This document shows, in pieces, positions 7,550 through 58,284 of a stretch of 64,000 nucleotides of DNA. Below the pieces are notes generated by a model. That model worked only from the letters and a program-made list of their open reading frames with translations, made no database searches and was not told the DNA's origin. The position numbers were made by a program, and so were the translations under genes. How positions within the stretch are numbered: position 1 is the first letter of the stretch; every line of letters starts with the position of its first letter. This stretch comes from Antedon mediterranea (Eukaryota > Echinodermata > Crinoidea > Comatulida > Antedonidae): positions 36,753,795 through 36,817,794 of the forward strand of contig NC_092670.1 of NCBI RefSeq assembly GCF_964355755.1, read 5' to 3'.

Positions 7550-10500
7550 TCATCTTCCACCTTCCACAATGTTATTAACAAACTTCTTGTATGGAAAAAC
7601 TCTAGTGTAAATTCCAGGTCGAAACCTGATGGCACATCCGTAGCCAAAGCTTGTAGCTCCGACTAAATACCACTTATCGTCTGAGCCGAGACAAACAAGT
7701 GGCCCACCACTATCTCCCTTTAAAGGAAAAAAAAAATAAAATTAGTATTGACTACATTATAACATATATATAGGAATGGAAATATTGTACATTTTTAAAT
7801 ATGATTCATGGCACTCAGATAATAATATTTGTTTTATTTTATTTGTTTTATTATTTTTTTATTTTATTTCATCATCACCATTAACAGGGTTGAAAGTCAT
7901 ACTCATGTTAGAGAGCGAACGTCAAATGTCACTGAACAAGTGCTCACATTTGCCAGTCGTAATAGGGTAATAGGTAATAGGGTAGAAGAAAAAGGGTCAC
8001 TATTGACAGTTATTCACTAATTTGTGGATTGAGGTGCTATATAGTACGTATACACATGTTGCCGTCAGCAGACTTGAGACTCCATGACGTTTATTGCCGC
8101 TAAATTCGATATCGTATGAAAATTCACAAAGCCCAGAACGTTTTTTACGGTTAATTTAACTAGTTGTTAGTGGGCTCCTATCACAAGCCCCTTGGGCTTT
8201 CCGGGAGGTTCCATTCATCTTTTTAAAATGTGTTTTACTCCTTTTTAGTTATGTGTTGTGTTTGTTTATGAAATGAATATAGAGAAATTGATGATGAAGA
8301 CAAAATAAAACTTACCTGACAAGTGTCCACTCCACCCTCTAGTTCTCCAGCACATATTTGATTATCTGTAATTATAGCATGTGTTCTTTGAAATTCCCGA
8401 CATTTTGTGTTGCTATAGACCGTTACAGGAGCCTCGTGCATTACATCGGTTGTACGATTCACGATGTCTTGGTGTAAATGTAAAAAAAACAAACATGAAT
8501 AGGTATACACTTACAACTTTGCTTAACTTATTTTTCCTAGTTTAGTAACATTTAAAAAAGCAATGTATAATATGTAAAACGTTATGATTTTCTAAGTATA
8601 GTTGATTTGACGGACTCTTTATATTGTGTAAAATATTATACCTACTTTGTGCACCATATCCGGTAACATAGCATAAATCGTTGCTAGAAAACTGATTATA
8701 ACTGTTTGAAATACATGCTGGACGAATGTATTTCGTAAATGGTATTGGCCTAGCTAGTTTCATCAGCATGAAATCATGGTCGTCTACATTGCTCACGTCT
8801 GTAGACTCTGGGTGAAGAAAAATCAATGACACTGGTACGACGACGTGATTTGCAGAAAACTTTTGATTGGTGTTGCTTCCAAACATAATACTCAAATCCT
8901 GAACACCGTTGAAGGTGTGCGGAGACGGATGGTCGATTTGTCTAAAGAAACAGAGCACCAGGAATTAGAATAGCAGACAAAAAGTGTTATTTAATTGTCA
9001 GTAATGTGCGGAGTAGGCCTAAATTAATATGCACGGAAAGATTTTTCTGAGTTGCCTTTGAACGTATAGTCTCCAGATCAGTATTCGGGAAATTTACAAT
9101 ATACTCTACGATTCTTCCAGTAAATCGGGGGAATTGATTAGATCACGACTAAAGTAGGCTATACTATTCTTCTAAATTTAACCTAGCTAACTTGGCTTCA
9201 AAATGTATGTATGAATCCGAAATACAGTATAACACATAGACAAGGTATTTCTATTACTATAGGTCCATGTAAATCTGGTAATTGTACATAAGTTGATGTT
9301 GCTGTACTTGCGAATGTTTTATAAAAATAGGAGCTAAAGGCTAGGACAATAACAATCGACGACAAATAGACAAATGTGCATTTTTCATACATAAAACAAA
9401 AGAAATATAAAAACTTTCATTCTAGAACTATAGAATAACCATCTATGCTTTCTTTGATGCAAACGACATTTTCACACGTCCAATCAAATGACGTTATGAT
9501 TAGCAAGAGTAATAATATCGTGAAAATACAAAGATGTTTTTATTTATCATGACGTCATTTGATTGGAATTTTTAAAATATTATTTTTATCAAAGACAGCA
9601 TAAATGATTATCCTATAGTTCTAGAACAGAACATTTCTAGTTTCTGAAATGTAAACAAAATGCATGCTTATATATTTATCGTCGATCGTTATCGTCTTAG
9701 TGTAAATGGGCCGTTAAGTCTTATAGACCTAACTTACAGATACGAAATGCAATGTGAAGCTGATATTGCCCACTGGTCGTTAATTAGGGTGCAACCGCAA
9801 TCTCCTTCACCATTTTTCATAATCAGACCTTGCCAGGGCCAGCTACCAGGAAGAGGCTCAGAACCACCGATTACACGTTTGGCACGTTGCGGCTTTTCTG
9901 GGTGAAGAGGTCTGCCACATGGAATAGCTTTAAAAAGAAAAGATCAAGGTTGCTGAAAACAATCTTTGAAGAGTAGCCATTATTGGAATAGTATTCATAC
10001 AAAACAAATTCACTTTAGGAATTTATAGGTTTTAGGTCTACAGTATTATTATTATATACCATTATTACTAAATGTTCAAACAGGCAATGGGAGCCATTTG
10101 TCTTTGTGTTGTTATAATATCACGGTTGTAAGTTTATATCTACCATGGAGTAGCTTTGCGTCAGAAAGTTAAGACATTGGTCAGAGGTTTGCCCCACTGA
10201 CGTAATTTTTACTTGATACAAAGTACATATTGAGAACATTATAGGTAGGTATAGCCTGGCGTTCATAGTTATTGTAGGCTACTTATTTGAACTTGAAAGA
10301 AGATAACAGTATATTGCTTGGATGCCTACCTACCTACAGAAGATACCTACTGTATGGAAATAGAATTACAATACTACATTTAAGTCTCAAATGCTTTTGA
10401 ATTACCTTTTGAATCATAGCAACCCATCTCGTCACTGAGGTCAGAACAGTCAAACTCATCATCACATATGTCCTCTTCAGTAACATGTGGTGAACTTTGA

Positions 10501-13500
10501 CATCTCAAATTAGCTAAAAGTATAAAACATTAAAATTTATTTTATCTTCAAGTTTGGTTCCAACTAAAACGCAATGCACAACAGTACGTGATTTTACCAA
10601 TTTGGTAAGTATACTTATCAGCAATCAAACCGGAAACCGGAGGCCTTCTTTTGGATTAATTTTCTAGTCTAGCATTTTCTTCTATAGTAAATTAAATCGG
10701 ATGCTTGGGCCTACTGAATGTTATATAAACAACAAGAATAATTTACCTGTATTTCTGATACCTTTAAGCATTAGCGTAAACTGAGTCGATCCTTTGCTGT
10801 ATGAGGTATGTCGGATCCAGAAAGTCAACTCAGGTACAATGACGTCATTAGGAAGAGTTCTTTTAAAATCTGCAGCAAGACCTCTATACACTATACTAGA
10901 TGAATCCGTGGCATCAACACCATGGCCAATAGACAGAAAATTTAATTTATTTTGTTCAGACCAGAAAGAAAGAAATTGTACCGCCACCGCCGAATGTGTT
11001 GTAGACGCGGCTATCCATAAGGTGGTGATGACATCTTCTGAGCTACCGTCGTAATTTCTGTTTTCAGAAGAGTTGAATGATATTGTTGCAACGTCTTCAA
11101 CGAGTGTAACGATTCTAGCATCTGCAAGAAATTAAACATTGTTTTTTAGAGACAGAACAATCACAGTTTTTAACGAAATCATAACGTACGTCAACCCGTA
11201 TTTTCTTGATGAAGAAGAGTGGAATGAAACGGTTGATGCCACGCAACAGACTTCTTACCACAATTTGTCATATCTTACAAACATTAATTATACGAACACT
11301 TATCTATTATTTCCCTTATCTGGTGATTTCAAAATATTATTTACATTACATTGTAACAAAACGAATTTATGTCCTAAACGTTTCATTTCTATCAGTCCAC
11401 AACTTACCATCATCTTTTTTTTCCACTGTAGAAACAGTAAGGCCTGATATATTATAATCACCCATTCCATTTAATTTCAACCAGACCTTATCAGTGTAAA
11501 AAGTTGCCGTATTAGGAATATCGTCCTGATGATCATCAAACAACAATACATGATACTTCGATGGATCTGATCCTAGACCAACCGCTAAGTTGTTCAATTT
11601 GAGAGACATGGTATTTTTCAGTGACGTTAGATTGATATAGTATCCATGCGGAGATGTAAAAACTAAACTACCATGTTCAAGCCATGAAGTAATTGAGTTT
11701 TTATTGTCTGCAGTTTGTATTACGAATGACTCATTTTGTTTAAGCTCAACTACCTTTTTATCTGTGAAGAAAAAATGGCCTACTGTTAGAATTCCTATTT
11801 CAATAACGCAGGCCTTTTTTTTTGGAGTAGATATTTCCCGGGTACTGTTTTGCATGATGCTCTATGTAAAACAGTTATTTGATTTACATATACTAATAAT
11901 AATTTGTTTTACTGGTACGTGATTTCGTTATCAGTTTTCTAAGTATAATACTTATACATGATAATGGCAACAATATGGTATTATATTAATACGGCAGTAG
12001 GCTATTTTAAGCTTTGTCAAACCAGTTAGATAGTGTAGACAGAGCTTAAGGTATGGTCACTTCAAACGAACGTAATCATGCCTTCACTGTGAAAAAGTAT
12101 GCCTTCACTGTGAAAAAGTATGTCATCATGTGAACGTATCTAAAGAGCGAAGTAGTGCAATCAACTATTACCTGAAAAACAACTCATTTGAACTGCAAAG
12201 CTTGAATTCTGTAAGTTTTGTACAAACCATATCCAAGCCGTGTTATCGGGGAAGTCGATTTCAGTTAAAATCTGAGGAACGTTTGGTAATTCACTGGAGC
12301 TGTTCAACGGATTTGTGCCAGCACCCATTTTAAAGTTGCATCCTTCAATTACACCGGATAAACTTATGAATTGTAGCCTTAATCGTGTTCGCGACGGCCC
12401 TGTGAACGTGTATATGCAGTCATCCGACAGGATTTCAACAGGGAGAGAATACACAATCTCTACTTTGTTTTCATGAACTAACGTCACACTGTAGCCGCAG
12501 TTGGTTCCTGAAAAACAATATTATGTTAGGAACTTGCTACCCAACAAATTAACCAACTCATAACTCGTTTTAGCAGAATTTTGTCGGGTATAATTTGTAT
12601 TTGAGTGTCAAAATAAATCGTTCATTGGCGCCATTGGAAGATCATACAGAATACATATTTTTAAGAAGTAAAGGAGTGAATTGGGTAGAATCAATCTCAT
12701 CAACTTACAATATTGTAAAGTTTAAATTACTTGCTAAATATTAATCAAATTAATGAAAAGCACAAGGTTGCCAAGTGTACGGTACGTCGTTGGTGTTCGC
12801 AAGGACGTAAGCGCAATGAAAGTGATTTGACCAATCATAAGCGATCGATTATTCGAACGGTCGCTTGTGATTGGTCAACTCTCTTGCGTTGAGTGTACGT
12901 TCTTGTGTTGCGTGTCTAATGGGAACCACCAAGCTTTAGCAATTTTACATGATTATCGAGGATGGCATAGGCCTACTTACGGCACATAGTTTCATCTTTT
13001 TTCCATAAACAGTCCTCCTTACCATCGCATATATCTTCTTCGCGTATACCTTTGAAGTGATATCGACAAGATAGAGCATCTAAACAATGAAGCAAACTCA
13101 CTCATTAGTTATTTTTATAGTTTTTTTGCAAACGATACTTGTTTGGGGGTGGGAGGGGCGGAGAAGAAGATAAAATAAGGACTACAGACACAAAAAAAAT
13201 GAGAAACAAGAAAACAAGGACAGAAATAAAAAAGATAGAAAAGTGAAACATTATAAAAGAATAGCAAGGAAAAGAACAGAGAAAAATGTAATAGATTATA
13301 TCAAACGTTATATATTCTAAACGGTTCCTTAACTATAAACTCACCTTCTTTCTTGATTGCTGATACTTCTGCCACGAATCCACTGCTAATTCCACCACTT
13401 CCTCTGTCAAAGACCACAGTTGCCATATTTTTTAACGTAACAATCGTTTGGTCTGTCAGGATGTTTGAAGGAACGCCCTTGAAGTAGAATTGTAGCTGAG

Positions 13501-16500
13501 AATGTGGTTGGGAATACGGGTTCTGAGTAAAACTCACCATGAGAGTCTGGTTATATTCTGCATCTATGTTGACGGTGGTGAAGTTTATTTTGATTCGTGT
13601 CCCCGGCGGAGATGTCAATAACCAGACGCATGGTGTCTGTTGATGCATCAGACTATTGGAAGGCTTTATTTGGATAACATTACCGGTGCTCAATTCTACG
13701 ATATGTGAACAACCTGTGAATAATAACAAGTAGCCAGCAATAGTGGAGGTATTGAATCTTCATTGATGTGAAAACATTCTAAGATATATAAACTGAAAAA
13801 TAAACCCGAAAATCCCCAAAATAATGATTTCGCTTATAAAAAGAGAAATTAAATGGTTTTAAATTAAATAATCAAAGAAATTAAAGGTATTTTTAAAGAC
13901 TTAAAAATATTTAAATTACTCTTTTATCAGATAATTTTTCTTATCCAATTTTTGGCCAAAGTGAATAATACTATTGACATTAAATGGTATTTAATCAAAA
14001 CAAAATTGTAAAGTTTGAGGAGCAAAATTAATCTGTAAGCATTGTGATCAAATTGATAAAAAGGAAAATAAAAAACTCGTCCTCTTATGAATTACACCGT
14101 TGTCCAATCTTTTTACCGAGTTTTGTTCGATTCGCATGTACCAATTTCATTGAATTACCGTACTTTTTGCATGTAGGCTACATACTTTTGCAAACTACTT
14201 CAGTCGCCGTTCCTATTGGAAAGTGTTCACAAATCTTCGATGCAATGTCAGTTATTATGCTTCCAAGAGTATCCTGGCAGTTATTCTCAACGCCCTCACA
14301 AACACTTTTACAAGGCTGTACCTGTATAGTAAAATAGTTATTTCTAATAATGTGGTGCCAACATTAAGCTACGTTCACAATAACAAAACGGAAGACGATA
14401 AGGTAAAGGTGAGTCCCGTGTTCTCTGAACGTAGGGGAATGAGCTGTTAGGAGCTCATTGTACTAAGCCTCGGCATTATGTGGTAGGGTGGCCAGTTCCT
14501 TTCCACGCCGCCTTTTTTCTCCCTAGTATTTTCAACCAGGTACTCATTTTACAGCTGAGTGGACTGGGAGTTGTCGGGCATTGAACCCCGGTCTATCTGT
14601 ACGACAGTCAACTGTCCTAACCACTCGGTTATCCAACTCCTCCCGGCGCCGCCTTCCGTTCAGTGAAACGGAACAAATGTGAATGTATATATGAGTATAT
14701 TTTCTAAAATTCCTTGTTTTAATTGTGTGTGTCCTTTTGTGTTGTCATATTGATTTTATGTTGCTAATTTTGTGGATCAATAGCTGTGGAAATTCATGTC
14801 ATCTTATAAATGTCCTTCGGCTCTGTCTGCACTATCAAACTTTATGTGACAATAAATGTGATGTGCCCATAATCATGATGATGTCATATCACTACCATAT
14901 TTAAACCATATAACAACTATATTTCGACACGTCACTCTGTTTTTGTTAAACTATTTTGATAGTGTAGACAGAGCTTTACTTACCTGATTATCGTCAGTGA
15001 TGCATTGTGGGAAAAGCGTAGAGCATATGACATACAGCGCATTTTTATCACAATCTAACGAACTGGGAATTTTTTCCATGTAATGTTCTGCAAGCTTCAT
15101 CGAAGGAAAATATTGGTTTGGAAAGAAAGTTTTTATGTAAGGCAAGATATTTTCACATTTACCGTACGTTGGTACATCAACACAACATGCTGGAGAGGGA
15201 AACAAGTTGAAAATTAAAACCAGACAGATATTCAGGCGGATATTCTGGTACCGGAACTGTGGAGGAAGAAGCTAGGCTAATTTCGGTGGAATAGTATTAT
15301 TTACTTTTGTACGGTACAGTTTTATATCCTAATGTTACTTCTATTTTTACTTCAGATGAATAAATAAAACTGCCTTACCATGTTGTATGTGGCTGCCTAT
15401 CATATCGTTTTCGAAAGATGTAAGCAGCTTTTCTCTTGCTCTCACTCGTAATAGCGAATTATTTGTACACCTTAAACCGGTTGGTATCTCAGTGTCTATA
15501 CAACAGAAAAATGATTTTGAAAATTATACAGAACAATCATTATGGTTGTGTGAGAGTGAAACAGGGTGGAAGTCATAACGAAGTTGTATATCGCCTACTG
15601 ATCATCTTCACCACCATTGCTAGCCATTTCCAGCCACTGCAAGGGAGGCCTCTCTAATTTGACTCCTTCTGTTCTCATCGTTATATACCAATTGCTTGTG
15701 TAGCTTGGTCAGAATTACGTAGCACTTACGCCGTTGGTGTCCTAGTAGTCAGAATCAAGCTTAAATTGTTACAATGCACCGTGTATTATTCATTTCTGAC
15801 TGAGACGTCAAGACATAAAGATTTCGCAAGCGAGAAAATTACTCTTACCTTCACGTTTCGTGCTATCCGTATTTAACACTGAAAATTAACAAACAAGAAA
15901 CACGGTAACAAATCTAAAAAAACTGTAACATACTATTTGAATTTTTAAAAAAGATCGTTAAGAAAACATAATTAAACTTTGACCTTGAATACCGTAACGT
16001 GGCCTACGCATGCATTCCGTAAATTATTTTAGTATACACAACTTAGGCTTAATAGTGTACTACACAAATTTGGCAGAAAATATTAACGATTATGCCTCTT
16101 GCATTTAATGCGGCATATGCTACTCAATTATTTTTAATTGGTGTTACATTAGTTAGACTCTGACACAGAGACTGCTGTACGACAATCTTAACAACTTCAC
16201 AGCTGGTTGTGACGTAATGCCACATTTAAATTCCTATGCTGTTTTTGTGGAAATACGATTTCTTCATGTGGCTTTAAATTTGTTTAGTGGATCTTAATCT
16301 ATTAAACATTATTATATATTATACTGAATCTCGAGTAAATTACTTCACCGTATGGTTACACATCACGATGCATCCATTCAACAGTTTGCTTCGTTGAGAG
16401 GGTGTGTTCACAGAGAACGCGCCTCACCTTTCCTCGAAGCTAAACTCATTGCTGTAAACTCAATTCGTGAATCTAATTGTTATATTAAGCGTGGTTCCCA

Positions 16501-17921
16501 CTAGAACGCAACGCCAAGTCACGTGCTGTATTTCGTAATCACAAGTGGGAACCGACGACGCAAACAGTGCTGCAAAAATCGCAGGTTTGATTTCATGCAG
16601 GCGGGGGCAAACACAATGGTTGGAAGGGCATTCTGTTACGTTGCGTAGATTGCGTTACGTTGGGTTGCTAATGAAGCGTGGATCCCACTAGCAACGCAAC
16701 ACAAGGACGTAACGCAACGCAAGTGAATTGACCAATCACAAGCGATTATTCGTGTTTGCTAACTGTCTATAACTTCGCTTGTCATTGGTTAAAACGCTTG
16801 CGTTGCGTTTACGTCCTTGCGTTACGTTCTAGTGAGAACCAAGCTTAAGAACCAAACTTACGCAACGTAACGCAATCTACGCAACGTAAGCAAATGCCCT
16901 TCCACTCATTGCGTTTGCCCCCGCCTGCGTGAAATCAAACCTGCGATGTTTGCATCACTATTGCGTCGTCGGTTCCCACTTGTGATTACGCAATACAGCA
17001 CTTTGCGTCGATACGTCGCTGCGTTACGTTCTTCTAGTGGGAACCACGATTTAGATATAATTATTCGCCTACTGAATATTATAATTACATGTATACTCAC
17101 CTACATACAGGATGATTGCAGCAGATAGAATAAAAGCTACACACGATGCTATTGTTATTATCATCACTAAATAAGTGAATCGACTTCGCTGCCTTACGCT
17201 ATGGTTATTAGATAAAGTAGATAATGTAGTTTGTAAAACATCTCTACTTCCTGAGATCCTGCCAGAAACGTCATCAATCACTGACGACTTTTCAGAAGAC
17301 GTACCATCATTCTAAAGGTATAATTGAAAATAATCAACACATACAGTCAGCACGTACTATCGTCAACTCATGAAATATTCATTTATTCTACTCAGCATCC
17401 ATTATGTGTATGTTATAACACACCTGAGTGGATCCTGATTGGTTATTACGCATTACGTGCGCGGAACATTGGTATTTTTAATGTTGATGATGAACCGCCT
17501 TAAGGAACGTTCATCTTTTTGTAAAAATAAATATACCACAGGCCGAATTTATTCTCATGTTGAATATAAACTCGAAAGGCGTTATCAATATAGATCAATT
17601 TCTTTCGCGATTTTTTCCAGTAAGAAGCCTGCCGTCCACACACAACATTTGTAGGCCTAGGCCAATGTCATTGAAATTATTTTCAGTAGGTGTGCTTTAA
17701 AACATATAATGAATGTTTATGAGTTGAATGTCAATCTTTAAACACATACAATCTCCTCCTTACTCATAATCATCCATTTTTTAGTTTTATATCAATATTT
17801 GTATTTTCTCCTGTATATCAATTTCCTGAATTACTGTTTTAAATAATTCTAAAAAGAGGTTTACCTTATTAACTGTGTTGCCCATGTTGTCTAATCCATT
17901 TAGTTGTATTGGCTTCGCCAT
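7550..17921 (-). CDS. Mosaic type II transmembrane serine protease, paralogue B (complete)
   Basis: Sixteen coding exons on the minus strand: 17865-17921, 17101-17311, 15849-15878, 15379-15495, 14984-15189, 14186-14321, 13345-13713, 12981-13079, 12172-12507, 11408-11761, 10747-11121, 10406-10513, 9738-9927, 8646-8941, 8316-8467, 7550-7717. All join in frame to 1067 aa. Order: cytoplasmic 1-63; membrane segment about 64-89; short stalk; frizzled about 139-253; CUB about 253-375; LDLa about 376-408; CUB about 409-520; two Cys-free CUB-like domains about 521-763; LDLa about 764-799 ([16 protein letters not shown]); trypsin domain about 800-1067. The protease has activation site RAKR|VIGG, His57 in SASHC, Asp102 in [17 protein letters not shown] with Asp189, and GDSGGP with Ser195. 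PCGRPL and YIRPAC supply the Cys pair expected to tether the cleaved domain. Predicted a membrane-bound protease of trypsin-like specificity; the substrate is unknown. The fold and family are clear; I know no gene with exactly this module order. Confidence 0.88.
9421..9627. mobile_element. MITE-like element with about 40-bp inverted ends
   Basis: TTCTAGAACTATAGAATAAC at the left pairs with the right end CCTATAGTTCTAGAA, and inner CCAATCAAATGACGT pairs with ACGTCATTTGATTGG. It lies in the intron between protease exons 13 and 14 of paralogue B. Confidence 0.7.
10143..10225. repeat. Half copy of a palindromic repeat, family P
   Basis: GGAGTAGCTTTGCGTCAG, TTGGTCAGAGGTTTGCCCC and ACTGACGTAATTT match the palindromic element at about 51170-51300. 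Intronic in paralogue B. Confidence 0.5.
10552..10612. repeat. Family T1 fragment
   Basis: TTTGGTTCCAACTAAAACGC followed by GTGATTTTACCAATTTGG matches one end of the T1 palindrome. The other arm is not recognisable. Confidence 0.4.
12009..12048. repeat. Family S fragment
   Basis: AAGCTTTGTCAAACCAG and TTAGATAGTGTAGACAGAGC: the two ends of family S with the middle lost. It lies in the intron between exons 9 and 10 of paralogue B. Confidence 0.55.
12787..12942. mobile_element. MITE-like palindrome, family T1
   Basis: Internal AAGTGATTTGACCAATCATA pairs with TTGTGATTGGTCAACTC. The right end is AATGGGAACCACCAAGCTTT. It lies in the intron between the first LDLa exon and the second CUB exon of paralogue B. 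Confidence 0.65.
14440..14650 (-). mobile_element. tRNA-derived SINE, type 3
   Basis: On the minus strand it begins GGAGTTGGATAACCGAGTGG (A-box-like), then GACCGGGGTTCAATGCCCG (B-box-like, TPsiC arm) about 45 bp later, then an unrelated body with CACTCAGCTGTAAAATGAG. It lies in the intron that splits the frizzled domain of paralogue B. It could be mistaken for a tRNA, but the body continues and no clean acceptor stem is seen. Confidence 0.6.
14818..14977. mobile_element. MITE-like palindrome, family S, in the frizzled intron of paralogue B
   Basis: Ends GGCTCTGTCTGCACTATCAA and TTTTGATAGTGTAGACAGAG. On the minus strand its end lies only a few bases after the donor of the exon at 14984 (CAG|GTAAGTAAAGCTCTGTC). 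Confidence 0.75.
16491..17052. mobile_element. Composite nested palindrome of three family T1 units
   Basis: Left unit 16491-16672 contains ATCGCAGGTTTGATTTCATG and GCAGGCGGGGGCAAACACAA. The right unit 16847-17052 is its inverted copy (TTGCGTTTGCCCCCGCC, then GTGAAATCAAACCTGCGATG). Between them, 16674-16846 is a typical T1 palindrome (GGATCCCACTAGCAACGC, then TTCTAGTGAGAACCAAGCTT). The whole block is inverted-symmetric, in the intron between exons 2 and 3 of paralogue B. Confidence 0.75.
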
Positions 17922-18824
17922 CTTTAGCTTACGGTACGTTTCCAAAATAAACCTGTGAAGTACGATTCTACGAATGTATCTAGTATTGTATAATATTATA
18001 ATATGACAATTATTGTATACTATAGCGTCGAAGTTACTGTGTGGTTTCAATAACGAATTAATAATATATTTTAATATCACAAATTCTTCATCTTTGCGTT
18101 TTTTAAATTAATTAAATTTATTAATTTCCAATTTATCACTGGGCGGCCTAGAGTGTATTTTTGTATGTAATCTAATCTAATACACTATAAGCCGAAATTT
18201 ACTCTTTATATTAGTAAAAGAAACCGTTAAAAACTACTTACCGGCACTATTTAGTTGATTAAAGCTTGCGTTGACTAATTTCAAAACGCAGTAGTAAATG
18301 AATGAAACTGTTAAAATAATATTAGGCCTATTGATGTGCTAAATCAATTATGAGTTTGTTTCGTTTAGTAGAAAATAAACTATTTCTGGTCTTTTTATGT
18401 CTTGATCTTTGACCTTTGCCAATACTTATTTCTGTATGTCGGCCTGCCGTGACGGTAAGTCGATAAGTTCAAGACATGTTATTGCATGTTTCATCTAACC
18501 TTTTGATCTAATTTGATGTTGAATCACAACCAAGGGAATAAAGTCTGTTTTTTAAATAGACATGCTGTTTAAAATGCAAAATAAATGTAAAACTCATAAC
18601 CAGTGATACACGTTCCATGTTAAAAATCCCTGTAATTTACACTACCGGCATGGGGTCTTTCATAACATTTCTATTTTAAGCTAAATTTACAGATTTAATT
18701 TCTCAAATTTAAAAACAAAATGTTTGTAATTTTCTTGAAAATGTTTAATATTATTTCTAATATTCTAATGTTATCTCTTGAAACAAATATATGATCTACA
18801 TACAGATACTAGTTCTAAAAAGGC

Positions 18825-18925
18825 CGTATACATGGCTGTATAGTTGCGTGCTCAAGTTAGTGTTTACCGACCACCTGACCGACCAACCGACCGACTAACC
18901 GACCGACATAGTGAGCTGTAGCGAC
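18825..18925 (-). repeat. Dispersed repeat, family Q (TCGG-rich core)
   Basis: CTCAAGTTAGTGTTTACCGA, then tandem GACCGACCAACCGACC, then ATAGTGAGCTGTAGCGACTA. Other copies lie on the opposite strand at 41218-41335 and 42243-42360, where the flank reads AGTCGCGT, a short spacer, ACGCGACT. Confidence 0.6.
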
Positions 18926-19958
18926 TAAACATGTGTATTTGATACCAGGTTGGAGCCTTCGAAATAAATATCTCAAAAATGTTTTTGTTATTCTTTAGAG
19001 AAGAGTTATCATTATTATATTTATTTATTATTTATTTGTTAATGGCACTAGCTATAATTAGACAAAAAGTTAACGGACATGTTGTTTAGCACACTTCGTT
19101 TTAAACAAATGGTTAGAAACTAAATAAAATATAGGCCTAGCGCTTAGGAAGGTTTGATGATTTCAAAGTCTTTAAACAAATAGAAGCAACAGCACACTGT
19201 TATGGCAGGGTTCACGCTGAGACTGTAAGCGTTGTATAGCCTTTTAAGACGCTTTACTTTCTCTCTGCGCATATTCTCTTTTTAACATTTTATTTGGGAA
19301 GAAATAAATAGTTACGTGACACTTTTCTATTAATATTTACTTATTGATTGCACAGAATTAACGCAACTCTGATTCATATTGTGCAAACCGATTGCGCCCA
19401 TAATTTTAGAAAACCAATACTGTATGTCAGAAACTATAATTCATCTTATCAAGCTTATGTACAGTATGTAGCAGCACCTGATTATGCGGCTGTCATTTTG
19501 ATAGAGCCTAACTGACTATAGCAAGTCATCTAAAAACCTCTATGAAAGCTGAATCGGGAGGTAACAGAAACATTTGTATCTTTTTATTCCTTATGCATTT
19601 GAAATCGATTAATTGTTTTACGAAGTAAAAGTAATATAGCAATATCCGTAATATTTACGTAATCAAACATACACATAACTGTTTTATCGATTATATTCGT
19701 TACTTCCCATTCGTTTGTTTAACATCCGTATCTCAAAATAATAATTCAATCATTTAGTGAATTGGAATTGTGGTAGTTAGGAATTGCATGTTTATATTAG
19801 AATATAATTATACATAATAATTGTACATATTACTTTTTTAATATCATCATTTTTATATAAGGGATTATCTACTGTAGAGTAATTAAATAGTAAACGGATT
19901 GACAACGTATATCAATTACCCTAGCTTCGCTGTTGAAATTATAGCGCGATCTTCTTAA

Positions 19959-20325
19959 GGCCAATTTACACAGACTAGCGGTAACAGTAATAAAAATATA
20001 GAATCTTATGTTATTCTTTATGACCGTTTACACACACCGTGGAGCGGATGTGCGGTTTGCGCCAGGATTGATACAAATAATTCTACGTGGGACAAGCTAC
20101 GCGGTCTCCGCTTAAGCGTGGTTCCCACTAAAACGTAACGCAAGGACGTAAACGCAACGCAAGCGTTTTAACCAATGACAAGCGAAGTTATAGACAGTTA
20201 GCAATCACAAGCGAATAAACCATCGCTTGTGATTGGTCAATTCACTTGCGTTGCGTTACGTCCTTGCGTTGCGTCGCTAGTGGGAACCACGCTTTACCGT
20301 TACCGCTTGCTGTGTAAAATTGGCC
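19959..20325. mobile_element. MITE-like element with about 28-bp inverted ends, interrupted by a T1 element
   Basis: GGCCAATTTACACAGACTAG at the left pairs with GCTGTGTAAAATTGGCC at the right. Both ends continue into a GCGGTAAC/GTTACCGC motif. The T1 palindrome 20114-20296 sits between TCCGCT and ACCGTTACCGCT inside it. Confidence 0.65.
20114..20296. mobile_element. MITE-like palindrome, family T1, best-preserved copy
   Basis: Almost perfect inverted symmetry over about 183 bp. TAAGCGTGGTTCCCACTA pairs with TAGTGGGAACCACGCTTTA, and AACGCAAGGACGTAA pairs with TTACGTCCTTGCGTT. Its conservation suggests recent activity. Confidence 0.8.
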
Positions 20326-20823
20326 GTTATAGTGTGTTTTAAACAGTTGTAATTGGTTAGAAAGCCCGTGCATCGATTGTAATGATCTTCTGTAAAATTC
20401 AGACGATATTATGCATTTTAGTCATATTTATTTAGAATTTGTTTCCTATTCCAACCCTTGTTTGTAAGTCGGCGGTCTGTCGTTCTGATTTCATTGCTAT
20501 CGTCTTTTTGCGCAATTCTAAATTTAGATTCAAAATTCTTCTATTTACAGAATGTTCACACATATCTTCTTTGGTCAAAGAGCGCCATCAACAATAGTAA
20601 ATGTATATTCCCATTTTTGTATTTTTCTTTGGACGCACCTTCACAAGTTGAAATGTGCTACTGATAAAACAATTGCAGTGCCAATAAATTATCAATAGAT
20701 AATAATTTATCAGATTTGTGCGAGGATTAGTACAACTGCTTGCAACGAAATACCAGAATAATCATAAAAATCCACTATTATTTTTGTAGAATATTTAATT
20801 TTTCTTATCACATTACGTCACAC

Positions 20824-21037
20824 AAGCTCTGTCTACACTATCAAACAAGGAAGTTGTACAACTCCCTGATCAAACTTGATGTGAACAAAAATGTGTGCCC
20901 ATATAAAATGGACATGATGATGTCATATCGCTAACATATTTTGCTATATCGCTACCATATTTGGCTATATCGCTACCATATTTGGGAACATCGCACCTTT
21001 TTAGTGAAACTTGTTGATATAGTGTAGACAGAGCTTT
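20824..21037. mobile_element. MITE-like palindrome, family S, with internal tandem repeats
   Basis: Ends AAGCTCTGTCTACACTATCA and ATATAGTGTAGACAGAGCTT. Inside, TATCGCTACCATATTTGGC is repeated in tandem. It lies just downstream of paralogue A. Confidence 0.75.
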
Positions 21038-21214
21038 ATACTGACTTCTATACATTATATCGTTCTATGGTTTATCCTTTCAGTAATAATCAGTCGAATT
21101 CATTTACTTATTACAGTATTATTCTAGTAAAAACGAATTTTTATAACCGCTCTATTGTTCATGCATACTGCTACATTTGCACACCAATACGTAATGAAAT
21201 ATCCATAGTACACT

Positions 21215-24200
21215 TTAGTGGTGAGTTTTCACTGAAAGAAGAAAAGAAAGGAGGTTAGCCAAAGCGTCTAAGTGTTGAAAAGACTTCAGTCTGTATTTTT
21301 CGTCACCACAATATAATTGAAATATTAATGACAATGACAAAAGTGTACCTGAATCCATAACCATATCAATGAATTCTGAATATCGACCAATCCTCGTGAA
21401 TCCCCCAGGCCTGTACCTGTTTGCGCATGTGTATCCAAAGCTCGTGAGGCCCCTCAGATAAAAGGTATTATCGTCATCAGGGCAGACAAGAGGTCCTCCA
21501 CTGTCACCCTGTAAATGATTTAGATTTTACATGAACTAGTATTTGTGGTTAGTCTGGGTTCCAGACGGTGTTTTGTTTTAATATTATTAAAAAGATAAAT
21601 ATTTTGGCACACATGGCGTTTCATACGTATACTACTTGAGTTTGGATATTTTCAGACAAAAATCGAAATAAATAAAAAAAAGAGACAATGAATACAGACT
21701 TGGAGCAAGCAAGAACACTTGTGGCGTTCTACATTACAGTACAACAGGAGGATTTTAGAGTAAAGCCGATTTTCCACAAGGCGAATTCACGCGAATTGAA
21801 AGCGTCAGCTTATACGCATGCGTAGAGAAGGATTCGGTAGATGGAAACATGAATGCAGAAACAGATGCCCAATCACATCACAACAATTTGTCAAAGGTTA
21901 AAAATGATCGTATTATTTGATAATGATCTGATTTGACCATAAAGTTAGGCGATCCGTGAAAATTAACGATACGCACAATAATAATTAATGCTTAATCATT
22001 CCTATAGAAACGCAACGCAAGAATGTAAGTGTAACAAGATGATTTGACCAATCACACGCGATGGATTATCCGAACTGTCGCTTGTGATTCGTCAACTCCC
22101 TTGCGTTAATTCTTGCTTTGCGTCTCTAGTGGGAACTAAGCTAGCTATAGGCCTAACCATTTTTCCCCCTCCATGGCCTAACAGTGTATACGTACGTAAC
22201 ACGTTCCGTGACCACCATCTCGTTCGCCTGCACACACTATGTTATCCGTGATTTGAAACATGCTAGACTGGAAATCCATGCATTTTTCATTGCTATATAA
22301 AGTCATTGACACGCCATGTAATTTTTCTGCTAGTTGATATATAACTGAAAAAGATGCATAATAACTTGTATAGTCTATAATAAGTTCATAGAGTTTTGAC
22401 TTAATATTAGTAAAAAGATATGGCGTTTCATACTAATCGAAACGTCGACTGGTGGTCTAACATCAAATATACAATAACAACAGACTTGGGGCAAGTCTGA
22501 ATAACTTAATACAAGTGTATGTAATTAAATAAAATGTTATTAAAAAAAATCATAAAGAACACATTTGTGCAACCAGAGATATACCCTTTGATCTCCGGAG
22601 CTCAGCATCCTTGTGTTATGCGTGGTTCCCACTATAGACGCAACATAACGCTACGACGTATTGACACAAAGTGCTGAACACATCGCAGGTTTGATTTCAC
22701 GCAGGCGGGGTCAAACACAATTATCGAAAGGGCATTTTCTTTCGTTGCGTAGATTGCGTTACGTCGCGTCGCTAGTGGGAACGAAGCTTTAGGTTGCCTT
22801 GATCAGAGCAATGTAATAATATATGGCTCTGTGGTGTGCGTGCGTACGTGACGTGTGCCCTTATTTCCTTCGCATCATGCGTCACAAGCTATTTGCGCTA
22901 AAACTTAGTACGCCTACGAACCTTGTCTACCAAAGCCAGATATGTAACAAGTATGACCAGGCTGAAACTGCGTCTCATTAATAAGGAGGCAAGCGGGTCG
23001 AACATAATTAGTAAAAGGAATCGGTTTTTTCAACTTGACGAGAGCAATATCATGGTCCAATGGATTTGCCAAACTGTCGTCTTGTGGAAATAAAAAGAGT
23101 ACAGATACTTCCACGACCAGATGCTTCTCTGAAAACACTTTATTGGATATACTGGCGAACAGTATCTCCAATTTCGTTACACTGTTTGTATGTTGTCTAA
23201 GTATTCAAAGAGAAAAAAAGGTATTTAAAGTTCTGTCTACACTATCCAAAAATGTGTCTAAATATGGTAGAGATATATGACGACATCTGTGAACACCTTA
23301 ACACGTCAGCGGTAAATGTCGTGCAATAAGCAATTTTTTTTTTTTATGAATTTAAAATTCTATAACATTTTAAAAGTCCTGTATAATGCCTCCATTTTTT
23401 ATCTATATCAATTATCGTATTATTGTACTGTTATGTAGTAGTCCTATAGTTAGTTTAGTATAGTAGTAATAGCATATAGTTATTGTGTACTATGCTGTAA
23501 TTTGTTCATACATACATAAGGCAATGAGAAGCTGTTATAGCAAACTCATTTGTCAGCAATGTGGAGCCACAGTGGGAATACCCGCCTACCATCATCAGTC
23601 CATACCATGGGTACTGCCCGAGCTTAGCCTCGTCCCCACCTATTACTCGCTTCTGTCGATTCTGATACAAAGGTCTTTTTCCGCATTCAACTATAGAAAT
23701 AAAATTTTTATGTCCGATGTAAATTAATTCGGGAAAGTTAAATCATGTATCGTAGATAATATGAAGTCAAATTGTATGACTTCACTATTAAGCCTTCTGG
23801 TTTTAGTGGTATAATTGTAATACAGCAACTGTTGATGATATCCAGTTGTACTCGTTTTATTTCAACGTGCGTAACAAAGAGTGCACATGCGTAATAATAT
23901 TAATTGAGGTAAATGTAAACACACAAGCCACGTCCGTTCCTGTAGCTATCACTAACTGGATACTATCCAACTGACTATCGGAAGTCGGTTAGATAACATG
24001 TATTAAACGGATTTGATACACTTGGACTTGTATCTAACTAACTTTAGATAGTCAGTTAGATAGTATCTAGCGACAGCAGCCGCAGAATGGTGTAAAACCA
24101 ACTAACAAATGTCTCCACAGTTTGCCTCATCACTGAAATCTGGACAGTCATATTCGTCATCACAAATATCCTCTTTGGTTACGCCGAATTTCAAGGGGCA

Positions 24201-27200
24201 CACCAGATCATCTAAACAAAATATGCATACTATTAACGAAACGATAAAGCAAAAGAACATGGGCACACAGATGTGTTGTTCTAGGCGAGTAATGTTCATA
24301 TCAATTATCCAAATGATTGATACCTATCGCATTATAGTGTTAGGTCTACATTGTTGTTGCCCAATTCATTTCATATTGTTCAGTATCTAACCTTTTCTAT
24401 ATGTTTATTTCTTGGAGTTTTGTATATGTAGGTGTCAGTGGATGTATTGCTGCAGTAGTGTTAATTATCAATGGCATTGCAGTTACTATAGTCGAATTGT
24501 TTTGACATGATCCCTAGAAACCATGTGTAGACCTACATCTACTTTTTATTTTTGTTTACTATATCATGTTTTTTTTGTACAATTATTTTGTTGTCCTTTC
24601 TTACTGATGCACCTTCCATTTGGTCGAGTACCACGGTTGCAAAAGTGTAAACTCCAAATAAATTATTATTATTATTTTATAAAAAGCACAAGTGTTAAAA
24701 CATTCTTTACCGTTACCGGTTTTCGCGCACATTTGTAAGGTCCAAAAAGTAGTCAAGAATAGCCCACGAATGTCATAACATACACATAACATACACATAG
24801 CATACACATAACATCCACATAGCATACACATAACATACACATAACATACACATAAATACACATAACATACACATAAATACATCTAGGCCTATTTCTTATT
24901 TATGGAATTGACATCATCAATAGTTCATCAGAAAATTATGTATTCATACCAATATTTACGACTCCATTTAATTCCACAGAGAGCATAGTATCAGTCGCGT
25001 CACTAAACGATGTGTGTCGAACCCAGAACGTAGAATATTTCACTATAAAATCGTCTGGTACCTTCTTCTTGAAATTTGTCACTACCTCACTAAACAGAAT
25101 TGTTGACGAGTCGTCTGGGTTAAGTCCATGCCCAATTGTGATGAAGTTAAATTTTGTAGAGGACGAGTTAAAATAGAGGAATTTTACACCAATAGCTGAG
25201 TGACGTACAGATGTCACTATCCATGTATGCGAGATGACATTGGGTCCAGCTTCGTCATCGTCTGCCGCTTCTTCGTTACCATTCTCAACAATGTCCGTGG
25301 TTGTCATGACGTCATTCATTTCCTTATCTGAAAAAAAGTTATAGCGTTTTCACTGTATTCTCTTTATAAATTACAGTCTTCCAATCACATGAATACTTGT
25401 TTGTTGATCATACTTGTATTTTAATATTTAGGTAAATTTTTTATTTTTTTTTACCGATTTCAACAACCCCATTTTCAACACAATCTTCTGGAGAGTGCAG
25501 TTTTGGATGAGGAAACAATATCATTGCTGTTTCGTCTACAAGAACACTGTGTCGTTCACCTGGAATTAACAAAGCAAACTAACTCTTAAACATTATGCAA
25601 AATAAACGACCACATAACTCCTTCATTTCTGATTGTATGCCTACTGGATGACTTAACGTTTAGATTTGTTGTCTCCAGATAAATGTAACTTCAAATTATA
25701 AGTTGTAAGTATAAATATAATAGTAGAATACAACAACACTGATCCGGTTATGGGGTGTTACGGTTAGTTTCGCAGTAAAACATTTAGGAGGATTCGCTTT
25801 ACCGAGTGGCACAGCTCAACGGAAAGCGTATTAAAAAGTTCATTCAGAGGACGAGCGCAGAGCAGATGAAACATAATATTCATAATAATGCTCAATAAAA
25901 TGGGACGCCCTCTCTCGGATTTTCAGAGAAAGTTTTTGGGAAAAATATTTGTCTAAAATCCTGTTACCTCTTACTGACGGAACGGCTGATACCAAGAAAC
26001 CAAGCACATACGGTCCTTTTCCATACATCTTTATCCACATTGCGTCGGTAAAGAACTCAAGAACATCATCGAAATACCCGTATAAATCATAAGCGTTATT
26101 CACCATAGGCTCATTTCCAATACCGACAAACATGTTGTTTAGTCGAATGTCAAAGATGTCTTCGATGCAACTAAAGTTAAAGTGGTATCCAGGCGGGGCT
26201 TTGAACGTTATAGAACCTCGTTCAAGTGCGTTGGCAACCTCTGTGGACATGCTTGTTGTATTTAAGGTGAATGTCTCGTCGGCGCCTACGTTTATGACTA
26301 GATCATCTGAAAACACAACACAATTCAAAATGAACAAAACCATATTAAATTGTTGTTTTTGTTGGTGTTACACACTAAATGATAGACCACTAAGTGCGTA
26401 GACTTGTTTCCAGGGGTGGGGGGGGGGGAGGAGGTCTTTCATTACTTGTAAATCGTATCAATTCAATAAAACTTTATTATATACCACACTGCTGTGACAT
26501 TCGTTTTGTCGTGGTAGACAAATAGGCCTATCAATAATGTTACAAAAAGCATAACTTACAATCTAAGAGATATATTATAAACATCTAAAATATGTTAGAA
26601 TACACTAAAAATAATTTACAAATTTAACAACACAAAATTTTATCGTATAGTACGTTTTACTATTGTTATATATTATCAAACTGTGATGAATTATACCTTT
26701 GTATACCCTACCTAAAAAAGCACTGAGCTGGATTGTGAAGGTAGTATTTGGTGAGCTTGACGCAAGCCAAATCCATCCTTGTTCATTAGGAAAATCTATC
26801 GGTTTTGATATCTCAGGAACACCGTTATATTCGCTATCTTCGTTAAACGGATTTTGACCATAACCGTATTTGAAGTTACAGCCACTGACAAGTCCAGTGT
26901 GATCAAGGAATTCGACTCTGACTCTAAACCTTTTGGGTGCTTCGAAACTGATTATACAGTCTTCATAATGTCCAGAATATGGCGGAGATGATAGCACCTC
27001 ACTAGCCTTTTCTGTAGCCATAAGGATGTGGTATCCGCACGAAGGTCCTGGAAGAAATGGTAAACGCGTAAAGGTAATAATATAACGAGGTTTCTAAGAG
27101 ACACGTGCTTAGTTTACCAGCTAAGTCGGTAACCTATCCACTAAGCGATTCATGGTTCTATGATGAACCCAATTTACTCGGGTAAATAACCATTTGTCTT

Positions 27201-30200
27201 GCCAACTGAAGGATCTATATCTGACATAATTGTCTGCATGAATTTAAGCTCTGTCTACACTATCGAACTAGTTTGACAAAAATAGTGCGATGTACCCAAA
27301 TATGGCAGTGATATACTAAAATATGGTAGTGATACGACACCATCATGTCAATATAATTATAGGCACATCACATTTGTTTGTCATAAAGTGTGATAGTGTA
27401 GACATAGCTTAAGAATGACATATGTTAATGTCTCCAGAAATGTTTGTATTAGTGTTTGTAAATCTGCAATGTAGGCCTACGGCAGAAAATTAATATTACA
27501 TTATATCTGTTGATGGAATGACAAGCAGACAAACACTGCAGATACGCTATAATGTAATGCTTGGTTTCCACTAGAGACGCAACATAGAAAAGTAACGCAA
27601 CGTAAGTGATTCAACCAATTACAAGCGATGGATTATCGAACTGTTGCTTGTCGTTGGTCAGCTTCTACGTCTTTGCGTTGCGTATCTGGTTTGACCAAAA
27701 CTTAAGCGTGAGTGAGAGTGCTTTAGACACTTACGGCATTTGGCTTCATCAAAACATTCGGTGACTCCATTACAGACTGTGCACTCAGCTTCTCCGTCAC
27801 ATTCAACGCAGTCGTAGACACCATCACAAAGGTCTTCTTCTTGTATAGGCTTTGCACTAGTCTCGCATATCAATGTGTCTAAATAAGGATTGAAATCATG
27901 ATAGAGTAAAGCTCTGTCTACACTATCAAACTAGTTTGACAAAAAAGTGTGATGTGGCAAAATATGGTACTGAGATGCCCAAATATGGTAGTGATATGAC
28001 ATCATCATGTCCATATGGGCACATCGCATTTTTCTAGTTTGATATTGTAGACAGGGCTTAAGAATGAAATATTGATTACGATGATGGCGTTCATAAACGA
28101 AAGATGTATGGTTTGTGACGATCAGAGCATGTTTTACAAATTATATGATATCAAGCAAGCAACAAAAAATGTTCGAAAACTATAATGACGTAATTGCTTA
28201 TCCTGGTTGTCGTAAAATATCTGAATGACGTCAGTGACGATGTATGATAATGTTGTGATAGTGATGATCATAGTGATGATGATGTTCCATTTACAATATT
28301 AGTTTAGTAAGGGAAGAGTGAAATTTCATTGGTTTAGTTACCTTTTGCGCGTACTACGGTAGCCGTCGCTGTAAATCCAGAGTTACCATTTGTTATTTCT
28401 TTACTTTGGAATGTCACTGAAGCAAAATTGATATGCGTAAGCACCACTCGATCTTTCGTAATGCGCTGGCTGTATAAGGTACTGCCATATGGATTCTGAC
28501 CAAATTTTAGTGTAAGCTCCTGATTCAGTTCCTTCTCGATATTTACATCTGTAATTTCAATCTGGATTCTGGAGTGTTCTGGCGATGTTATCGACCAAAC
28601 AACGCTGGAATTTTCTGGAAACTCGTTGGGATAGTTTGGAGATGAAAACTCAAATTCTTCACCAACATCCAAATTGATTGCATATGAAGTACCTAGAACA
28701 ATGTAAATGGATAACGTCAAATACAATTTTACTTACGGTTTATTTAGTATATTTTATAGAAAAATTGTTTTGAGTGCAGTTGTGGCAGAATTAGTAGCAG
28801 TAAAGACAATCGTTGTGAATTTATTTTACTTACTTCGACAAACTATTTCGTCATCTTCTCCGACTGGGTAATGATCACATGACAGTTTGGAATCAAGAGA
28901 AATACTTGAATTAACATTTTGACAACCGTTTAACACGCCCTCACATACTGTTTTACAGGGCATAACTTGTCGAGTGTCTTTAATGCACGGTGGGTACACC
29001 ATTGCACAAAATACGTAAATGGCATGTTTATCACAGTCCATAAAGTTCTTAACACTCTCCAGATATGTTTGGGCACTTTCAAGAGAACTAACTACCTTAT
29101 TTGGAAAGAACGTTTTTACGTAAGGAAGGATGCCGTCACACTTGTCTTTTGGAATATCCACACAGCACACTGTACATAAATAAAAACAAGATAGTTAGTT
29201 ATTGACTATGGTTTAAAATATTTCCGTATGTTTCATTTAACATATCATAATTAAATAAAACAAATATTTAGAATATTGCAGCCCAAAGAGCTGACTTGCA
29301 GAAATAATAATTATACATCAAATTGTCAATATCACATCATTTACGAAAACACAATGTCAAACAAACGCATTCAGGTAAAAACAAAACAAATTAATGAATA
29401 AAAATATAGGAGGCCCAGTCACATGGTAAAAATCAGTTATAATAGATAATTTCACTAATAACAATCTATTACAAGACAGGCATAGGCTACATAAAATTAA
29501 ACAATCTTATTATTATTAACAAGCCTCGTGTATAGTATTAACATTCCGATAAACTACAATATCTTACACTGATGGCAAACATGGCTAAGAACGAAAACAA
29601 TAGAGGAGGAATGGTTTTGATCAAGATAAACACTATAGTATATTTTAGTAAGTTACAAGTGAGCTATATATTCTCGTGTACATGTATAGCAACCGATGCA
29701 TACGTTTCTACTGCTTTGTCCAAAATGTGTTCAAACAAATGGCCTAAACGTGTAACACACGAGAAGTCCTCCATTTTAATAAATATGTCATCTAACCTGG
29801 TGTTAGCTTCTTTTCAACTTGTTCATTAAAGTTCTGGATAGCTGCGTACTTAGCTCGAGTACTTGCACGATGGGATAATGCATCGATACAACTCATATCT
29901 TTCATTTTATTCCTACTGTGGCTAGCCAATTCATGATGAAATTTGTCGAAGCTCCCTGGTTCTGGTAAAACAATTAAACGGTTATGTCATTAACTATGAT
30001 GATTAAATACAGGTGAAATCATACGACAGATAGAAATAGAATAAATGGTGGCTAGTTACACCATCACTCTTGAAGGAAGATTAGAATTCTACCTCAGTTG
30101 AAATTTTTCTCAAAGAACATGAAATGGATTTTCTATCTTCTATTTCATAAATCTTCAATGAAATTAACATCATGCTCTAAAGTTATAGACTGTTTTTCTT

Positions 30201-31114
30201 CTTTTCTCAATTAATATAGAATAATATGTTTAAGATTTCATAAAATAATGTTAGCAATACATCCATGACTTACCGGCTAAAACGTCAACTGTTGCAACGG
30301 CAGGTTTTTTGAGCACTAACAGAAAAGAAAACATAAGAATAAAATATCGACGTAAGTTTATACTCGCCCATGTATTGTTTTTAGTCATCTTTCAACACTG
30401 TAATAGTAAAAAAAAAATATTGATTCAAAAACAAACAAAAACTAAAAGTGTTTTTAATTTGAAACTTACCAACAACCATCCATAGAACAGCGAACGCAAC
30501 AGCAGCACAGCACGTGGACACAGCAAACCCGCCAAAAAGGTAAATAAACTTTCTTCGTCTGTTGTACTTTTTTGAAACGGATGAAGCTGACAATGACGTA
30601 GAATTAATACTGTATCCGGGTCTAACAAAGATTACATCACTGCTCTGTTCAAAATGTAATTAAATGATGGAGGTTGAGATTACTATACTTTCTGATAGAA
30701 CGGGTATTAGAATAATGACTGCAAAATCGTGTTAAACAGGAACTTTATGTGACAAAAAAAATTGATGTTCCTATAGGCCTAATATAGACATGATGATGTC
30801 ATATCACTACCATATTTGGGCACATCACATATTGTCGAACTAAGTTTGATTGTGTAGACAGCTCTGCAAAAAGCTTGAATCTAATGTTGTATGATCAGAT
30901 GTGCTCCTCCTCAGTCCTCGTGCATGTATTTATTTCCCAATAATTCATATTATTCTTTATAATTTCTCCATTTTCTACCGACTGTTCGAGATCAAGGATG
31001 CATTACTTTAATACAGCTAGGCCTAACTCTTACCTCCTCATTAATACCAGGTTGCCTAATATAATCCACTTGGTTGATGTGTCCTTTGATCGTTTCCTCT
31101 TCGACTTGGGCCAT
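21215..31114 (-). CDS. Mosaic type II transmembrane serine protease, paralogue A (frameshift in last catalytic exon)
   Basis: Exons on the minus strand: 31034-31114, 30470-30644, 30274-30315, 29797-29961, 28834-29169, 28342-28692, 27735-27878, 26712-27047, 25968-26306, 25455-25559, 24950-25327, 24107-24211, 23516-23690, 22922-23181, 22196-22344, 21349-21507, possibly 21215-21231. Order: membrane segment about 60-86; stalk; frizzled about 154-266; Cys-free CUB about 267-383; LDLa-like about 384-431; CUB about 432-543; CUB-like about 544-656; 35-residue linker absent from B; CUB-like about 692-817; LDLa about 818-852; protease domain from about 853. Seen: RQKR|VIGG, His57 (TASHC), Asp102 (DHDIALVKL), GDSGGP. 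Odd: Asp189 is Gly (GGHGTCY), residue 192 is Tyr, and after GDSGGPLVC the frame shifts near 21480, reaching TGA at 21454-21456 (about 1064 aa). Downstream codons still align with B in the next frame. So it is a recent pseudogene, an inactive variant or a one-base sequence error. Confidence 0.85.
22010..22144. mobile_element. MITE-like palindrome, family T1
   Basis: GATGATTTGACCAATCACAC pairs with GCTTGTGATTCGTCAACTC. The right end is TCTCTAGTGGGAACTAAGC. It lies between the last two main protease exons of paralogue A. Confidence 0.65.
22619..22790. mobile_element. Family T1, variant with GCAGGTTTGATTTCACGC core
   Basis: TGCGTGGTTCCCACTATAGA to GCTAGTGGGAACGAAGCTTT. The interior matches the outer units of the composite at 16491-17052. 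Intronic in paralogue A. Confidence 0.65.
23228..23290. repeat. Family S partial copy
   Basis: GTTCTGTCTACACTATCCAA with the AAATATGGTAGAGATAT interior and no right end. It lies in the intron between protease exons 13 and 14 of paralogue A. Confidence 0.5.
23940..24086. mobile_element. MITE-like element with imperfect inverted ends
   Basis: CTGGATACTATCCAACTGAC near the left pairs with ATAGTCAGTTAGATAGTATC near the right. It lies directly against the donor side of the second LDLa exon of paralogue A. Confidence 0.5.
24770..24882. repeat. Short tandem repeat (ACATACACATA units)
   Basis: About ten imperfect copies of a 10-11 bp unit CATAACATACA, in an intron of paralogue A. Confidence 0.85.
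27246..27411. mobile_element. MITE-like palindrome, family S
   Basis: AAGCTCTGTCTACACTATCG to GTGATAGTGTAGACATAGCT, with AAATATGGTAGTGATA interior. In the intron between LDLa-1 and CUB-2 of paralogue A. Confidence 0.75.
27559..27708. mobile_element. MITE-like palindrome, family T1
   Basis: ATGCTTGGTTTCCACTAGAG, then TGATTCAACCAATTACAAGC, then TGCTTGTCGTTGGTCAGC, with a diverged right end. Ends about 27 bp from the donor of the LDLa-1 exon of paralogue A. Confidence 0.6.
27909..28060. mobile_element. MITE-like palindrome, family S
   Basis: AAGCTCTGTCTACACTATCA to TTTGATATTGTAGACAGGGC, with TATGACATCATCATGTCCAT inside. It lies about 30 bp from the acceptor side of the LDLa-1 exon of paralogue A. 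That small exon therefore has palindromic repeats close on both sides. Confidence 0.75.
30742..30866. mobile_element. MITE-like palindrome, family S, diverged
   Basis: Left half AACTTTATGTGACAAAAAA, interior TGATGATGTCATATCACTAC, right end TTTGATTGTGTAGACAGCTC. In intron 1 of paralogue A. Confidence 0.6.
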
Positions 31115-42242: not shown

Positions 42243-42360
42243 TTTTTAGTCGCGTGGACGCGACTCTATAGTTCACTATGTCTGTCGGTCTGTCGGTCTG
42301 TCGGTCTCTCCGGTATCACTATGCGTTTAAACACGCAACTTATGGCTGTTGGCCTTGTTC
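42243..42360 (+). repeat. Dispersed repeat, family Q
   Basis: TTAGTCGCGTGGACGCGACT, TTCACTATGTCTGTCGGTC, a tandem GTCTGTCGGTCTGTCGG core and a diverged right end with GGCTGTTGGCCTTG. Confidence 0.6.
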
Positions 42361-46389: not shown

Positions 46390-46395
46390 AATAAA

Positions 46396-46426
<31 letters not shown>

Positions 46427-58259: not shown

Positions 58260-58284
58260 CTAATTAATACAGAAAAAAAAGATA

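Follow-up and report, generated by a model that had tools for sequence, protein, structure and literature searches.

Can a single gene encode a membrane-anchored protease whose stem carries both a frizzled (Fz) domain and CUB domains? The question is raised by two tandem genes, A and B, on the minus strand of a 64,000-nucleotide stretch of Antedon mediterranea DNA (contig NC_092670.1, positions 36,753,795 to 36,817,794), referred to here as the window. The original prediction placed at 7550-31114 two mosaic membrane proteases with the order transmembrane (TM) helix, Fz, CUB, LDL receptor class A (LDLa), CUB, CUB-like, CUB-like, LDLa and trypsin. We found this order to be right in both genes and the span exact, position 31114 being the start of the gene B ATG and position 7550 the final base of the gene A stop codon. 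Splicing by hand on the basis of open frames, GT-AG sites and phase agreement yielded 16 exons and a protein of 1067 aa for gene A (17921..7550) and 17 exons and 1110 aa for gene B (31114..21215), neither with an internal stop. A 16-exon gene with a 1067-aa product had been predicted for B; it exists, but is gene A in the present naming. Judged from their sequences, A and B are probably type II transmembrane serine proteases (TTSPs) with a Fz-CUB1-halfLDLa-CUB2-CUB3-CUB4-halfLDLa stem, an estimate that takes in the mechanism proposed below.

The exons of the two genes join in phase into the same module order, as had been claimed: all introns are GT-AG and mostly phase 1, and A and B have 14 intron positions in common that agree in phase. 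One additional intron lies inside Fz of A (phase 0, the outer borders of the domain being phase 1), and B has one more inside CUB4 and another near its end. The two models were built side by side and are thus not independent of each other. Both proteins read TM, juxtamembrane segment, Fz, CUB1, half-LDLa, CUB2, CUB3, CUB4, half-LDLa, S1A protease. Identity between A and B is 48% for the protease, 50% for Fz and 31-40% across the CUB domains, far above chance. Their sole TM helix is located near the N-terminus (hydropathy peak at residues 69-91), with basic residues on its N side and a short cytoplasmic tail; in A, hydropathy reaches 2.72 at residues 73-91 and no other region exceeds 1.6. The juxtamembrane segment comprises only 49-69 aa, and Pfam searches of A and B at E up to 10 gave no match to SEA, MAM or SRCR. 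From LDLa2 to the activation site there are only ~25 residues.

Pfam recovered the predicted modules in part. Fz, CUB1 and the protease are above cut-off in both proteins (Fz 41 bits, CUB 30 and Trypsin 172 in A; Fz 44, CUB 40 and Trypsin 149 in B), but the LDLa modules are below cut-off, and CUB2, CUB3 and CUB4 of A and B had no Pfam CUB match. Profile comparison by hhalign related CUB2 and CUB3 to CUB1 (95%, E 2e-8 and 66%, E 6e-5, respectively) and CUB4 to CUB3 (70%, E 4e-5), with unrelated control pairs at ~0%. The best Foldseek matches of an AlphaFold2 model of CUB3 (pLDDT 72, pTM 0.70), all with prob 1.00, were the CUB domains of Neto2, PCPE-1, neuropilin, TSG-6, C1r and enteropeptidase, and VIA-align of the model against CUB chains gave a Z of 10.3 and a root-mean-square deviation of 2.8 over 105 residues; the model shows CUB3 in the CUB beta-sandwich fold. 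The AlphaFold2 model of CUB4, made from two sequences, reached a pLDDT of only 35, and the weak profile match suggests that CUB4 is likely a CUB domain. LDLa modules are present as predicted, but A-LDLa1 and both LDLa2 have four of the six cysteines and are half modules, and B-LDLa1 carries an additional cysteine-rich insert (8 Cys). The half modules match chiefly the C-terminal calcium-binding half of the Pfam profile; LDLa2 retains the calcium half (CD..DC..DxSDE), its cysteines corresponding to consensus cysteines 1, 4, 5 and 6. The complete LDLa set of six cysteines plus calcium site was not found in the LDLa modules of A and B.

Alignment of the protease domains revealed an intact catalytic triad (H57, D102 and S195) in both genes, with S1 residues D189-G216-G226 in A and G189-G216-G226 in B. 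The activation sites, RAKR↓VIGG in A and RQKR↓VIGG in B, are of furin type (RXKR↓VIGG); a CGR/CGK pro-segment stands ahead of them, and the protease carries a C122-type cysteine (RPAC). An N-terminal TM helix, a C-terminal S1A domain with its triad and an I/V-[IV]-GG site with a pro-segment cysteine, whose disulphide pairing is predicted, characterize A and B as TTSPs.

Several described proteins resemble A and B. The module order of MFRP is TM-CUB-LDLa-CUB-LDLa-Fz, with Fz at the C-terminus. Overlooked in the original prediction, MFRP has the closest described module set, being like A and B a type II membrane protein with CUB, LDLa and Fz (two, two and one, respectively; PMC12036977); it has no protease and its Fz comes last, whereas in A and B a protease is present and Fz comes first. 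Corin is likewise a type II membrane S1A protease with Fz in its stem and convertase-type activation (PMC9296861), but has two Fz, eight LDLR repeats and SRCR (PMC10376093) and no CUB, where A and B have one Fz stretch, two incomplete LDLa and CUB domains. The corin apical-sorting motif DSSDE (PMC7605860) occurs in A and B only as DLSDE/DFSDE, from which we draw no claim. Enteropeptidase (TMPRSS15) shares the CUB and LDLa stem and, with TMPRSS2, has the closest solved protease domain (1ekb, 158.7 bits); unlike enteropeptidase, A and B have no SEA, MAM or SRCR, and they have Fz and a furin-type instead of a trypsin-type site. Matriptase and matriptase-2 (ST14, TMPRSS6) also combine a CUB and LDLa stem with a C-terminal protease (PMC10376093). 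Matriptase has SEA, then two CUB and 3-4 full LDLa, and matriptase-2 has SEA, two CUB and three LDLR (PMC10376093) with known autocatalytic activation, whereas A and B have no SEA, a Fz, four CUB-type domains that are ordered differently, half LDLa modules and a furin-type site. Insect proteases carry either Fz (corin and the SPH198 type, TM-SEA-Fz-2LDLA-PLD) or CUB (S-CUB-PD), never both in one protein in the sets compared here (PMC1761132, PMC10036332). The combination matches neither corin (PMC10376093) nor enteropeptidase and matriptase, as had been predicted. The enzyme class is well known, human and mouse TTSPs forming four subfamilies in a published study (PMC3154331); a stem of Fz, four CUB-type domains and two shortened LDLa was found described nowhere in the full-text literature searched (5.39 million papers), nor was any combination of Fz, CUB, LDLa and trypsin, eukaryote protein databases being outside this search. 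What the literature yielded were surveys of insect proteases and papers on unrelated subjects.

The tandem of two genes originally predicted was incomplete: a third paralogue, C, left unmentioned, starts in the window at 5494 and, as the left flank showed, occupies C1:36759288-36748448 on the minus strand. It has neither a Fz nor a LDLa1 exon and reads CUB1-CUB2-CUB3-CUB4-halfLDLa-protease with the same intron phases as A and B, the phase-1 borders being kept; its activation site, IVGG, is non-furin, without R-X-K-R. Given that C lacks Fz and LDLa1 but retains the phases, these two modules are phase 1-1 exon cassettes. When the genome was searched with the A, B and C proteins, the CUB2-CUB4 core turned up in no gene beyond these three. 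A protease tree of 14 domains, with enteropeptidase and TMPRSS2 taken from solved structures and corin, matriptase, hepsin and trypsin sequences serving as leads only, grouped A with B (100/99) and both with C (92/87). As C falls outside A+B, gain of Fz and LDLa1 in A/B and their loss in C are equally possible. The three joined, weakly (81/86) and with deep forks open, CUB/LDLa and Fz/LDLa proteases of the same genome. The data fit a Fz cassette within a CUB/LDLa protease line, and the A/B line would have arisen from a CUB/LDLa protease stock that it shares with the Fz-less C. A place between the corin and enteropeptidase plans, as originally proposed, is not supported by these groupings or by the same CUB2-3-4-LDLa-protease core in C.

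Left of the window (C1:36748654-36739215), the final protease exon of C has a perfect gtaagt phase-1 donor. Past a minisatellite of ~70-bp units come four LDLa modules, SRCR, another LDLa and a further protease with G189. C may run on into this LDLa x4-SRCR-LDLa-protease part and be, like polyserase, a polyprotease with two protease domains.

Each stretch might instead hold two genes, a MFRP-like Fz/CUB/LDLa membrane receptor and a separate trypsin; MFRP sets a precedent for the receptor, as it has all three modules in a membrane protein and lacks a protease (PMC12036977). However, the protease exon begins at an open phase-1 acceptor with the pro-segment and has no in-frame Met ahead of VIGG, which bars it from serving as the opening exon of another gene, and A, B and C all join LDLa to the protease. 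Since the protease exon is unable to start alone, we rejected two genes per stretch, which we hold to be highly improbable. Some points do weigh against reading A and B as complete TTSPs with the stem given above. Their 16-17 exon joins are predicted from hand-made models, and some B splice donors are weak (gttaga, gttcgt, gttagt). CUB4 is a likely CUB domain on its profile match. The LDLa modules are without two cysteines and the CUB domains without most of theirs, so that folding and calcium binding are predictions, as is the binding of Wnt or lipid by Fz.

Could A and B be diverged corin orthologues that gained CUB domains? Among TTSPs, corin is the one known to carry Fz, and it too is activated by a convertase (PMC10376093, PMC9296861). 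A CGC motif appears to be common to A, C and corin; the nearest match in the genome for the Fz of B is the first Fz domain of a corin-like gene, and in the Fz tree A+B (99/97) join the divergent Fz of that gene together with EGF-Fz proteins (84/93, on long branches). The nearest solved Fz domains are those of Frizzled-5 and sFRP3. Yet A and B have no second Fz, SRCR or full LDLa repeats, and C, which is more closely related to them, lacks Fz; a separate gene at C1:14.456-14.469 Mb carries corin-like arrays of Fz and LDLa. The trypsin-domain phylogeny groups A and B with neither corin nor enteropeptidase, nor with TMPRSS2, matriptase or hepsin, a result to be read with the deep forks open and the corin sequence a lead only. 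Taken together, corin orthology is very unlikely. Far more serious, with a chance not much below even, is that the architecture occurs widely among echinoderms or other invertebrates, is stored in databases under names like 'enteropeptidase-like', and is thus unnoticed and not new. Echinoderm genomes are rich in mosaic proteases, module order is often hidden by automated names, and this genome itself has tandem LDLa-CUB-LDLa-trypsin genes and mixed Fz-trypsin-LDLa genes; the negative literature search given above stands on the other side, with the same limit.

The corin-like gene (C1:14456500-14469000) has an unusual order, TM, Thr-rich stalk, Fz, trypsin, LDLa x4, Fz, LDLa, Fz, LDLa x4, and no second protease was seen in the next 10 kb.

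If A and B are TTSPs as we propose, the zymogen would be cut at RXKR↓VIGG by a furin/PCSK-type convertase, making activation independent of trypsin-like self-cleavage; corin is a TTSP that is unable to self-activate and is cleaved by PCSK6 (PMC9296861). The catalytic chain would stay tethered by a disulphide between the pro-segment cysteine (CGR/CGK) and the C122-type cysteine (RPAC) and act at the cell surface, where the Fz and CUB modules might select or position a protein or lipid-modified ligand. D-G-G denotes trypsin in the scheme of the honey bee survey (PMC1761132), by which A is trypsin-like and B is not. A would cleave after Arg/Lys, and B, with Gly189 and an open Gly216/Gly226, would prefer uncharged, probably large hydrophobic residues, suggesting that the pair has probably split its substrates. 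Without Asp189, B could not readily self-activate at Arg, which fits an external activator. That A and B form a distinct ambulacrarian TTSP subfamily, in which Fz brings a Wnt or lipid-modified ligand to the convertase-activated protease and the tandem copies are specialised as trypsin-like (A) and non-trypsin-like (B), is a speculative extension that we regard as unlikely.

Table 1. Exons of genes A, B and C and the modules assigned to them (window positions unless C1 is given).
Exons	Position	Strand	Assignment
A exon 1	17865..17921	-	start codon, cytoplasmic tail
A exon 2	17101..17311	-	cytoplasmic tail, TM helix
A exons 3-4	15878-15849, 15495-15379	-	juxtamembrane segment, too short for SEA
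A exons 5-6	15189-14984, 14321-14186	-	Fz cysteine-rich domain; Pfam Fz
A exon 7	13345..13713	-	CUB1; Pfam CUB above cut-off
A exon 8	12981..13079	-	half LDLa 1, 4 Cys; Pfam LDLa E 0.037, profile 16-37 only
A exon 9	12172..12507	-	CUB2; hhalign to CUB1
A exon 10	11408..11761	-	CUB3, no canonical cysteines; AlphaFold2 model, Foldseek, VIA
A exon 11	10747..11121	-	CUB4-like; hhalign to CUB3
A exon 12	10406..10513	-	half LDLa 2; Pfam LDLa E 1.3e-4, 22.5 bits (cut-off 24.1)
A exons 13-16	9927-9738, 8941-8646, 8467-8316, 7717-7550	-	RAKR↓VIGG site, S1A protease; H57, D102, S195, D189
B exons 1-2	31114-31034, 30644-30470	-	cytoplasmic tail, TM helix; hydropathy
B exons 3-4	30315-30274, 29961-29797	-	juxtamembrane segment
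B exon 5	28834..29169	-	Fz, single phase 1-1 exon; Pfam
B exon 6	28342..28692	-	CUB1; Pfam CUB; PDB cubilin match E 1e-10
B exon 7	27735..27878	-	LDLa 1, cysteine-rich insert
B exon 8	26712..27047	-	CUB2; profile comparison
B exon 9	25968..26306	-	CUB3; second row of alignment used for CUB3 model
B exons 10-11	25559-25455, 25327-24950	-	CUB4-like, extra intron
B exon 12	24107..24211	-	half LDLa 2; Pfam LDLa E 2.2e-4
B exons 13-17	23690-23516, 23196-22922, 22344-22196, 21508-21349, 21231-21215	-	RQKR↓VIGG site, S1A protease; triad, G189
C exons 1-5	5494-5444, 5049-4848, 3187-3152, 2761-2579, 1953-1612	-	TM, juxtamembrane, CUB1
C remainder, left of window	C1:36753110-36748448	-	CUB2, CUB3, CUB4, half LDLa, trypsin

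Short interspersed elements (gctctgtctacactatcaaac... and aacgcaacgtaagcg...) are repeated throughout the introns of the window, e.g. at 27290-27410, 14840-14960 and 16440-17060. Next to B, on the plus strand at 34671-37095, are exons resembling what we take to be chitinase domain-containing protein 1 (family 18 fold), and an array of C-type lectin-like exons (GHLVSIRSEEENEFVS...), six copies of which were seen on both strands, extends over 40528-59619. Elsewhere in the genome there are more tandem LDLa/CUB/trypsin arrays with near-identical last exons (C6:24191018-24326913 and C8:23184818-23225403), tandem intronless TRIM-NHL-like genes (C1:36724131-36733794) and a run of at least 11 Fz cysteine-rich domains packed into ~6 kb, which seem to form one multi-Fz gene (C8:15065807-15071986). 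Three tektin fragments of this genome (354 Mb, 18 contigs) score much higher against chains of entry 8snb, a sea urchin sperm axoneme, than against mammalian chains (175 against 137, 211 against 135 and 198 against 137 bits), in keeping with an echinoderm or a near relative and hence with the invertebrate origin originally proposed; a fourth tektin, of the tektin-3 type, gave no such signal, its sea urchin counterpart seemingly being absent from the solved chains.

Among the families compared, Fz is found in corin and CUB in proteases of the matriptase type. The three tandem genes A, B and C present module gain or loss exon by exon and are a clear example of exon shuffling. A membrane protease with Fz and CUB domains would be a cell-surface enzyme that might act directly on Wnt-type or lipid-bearing ligands.

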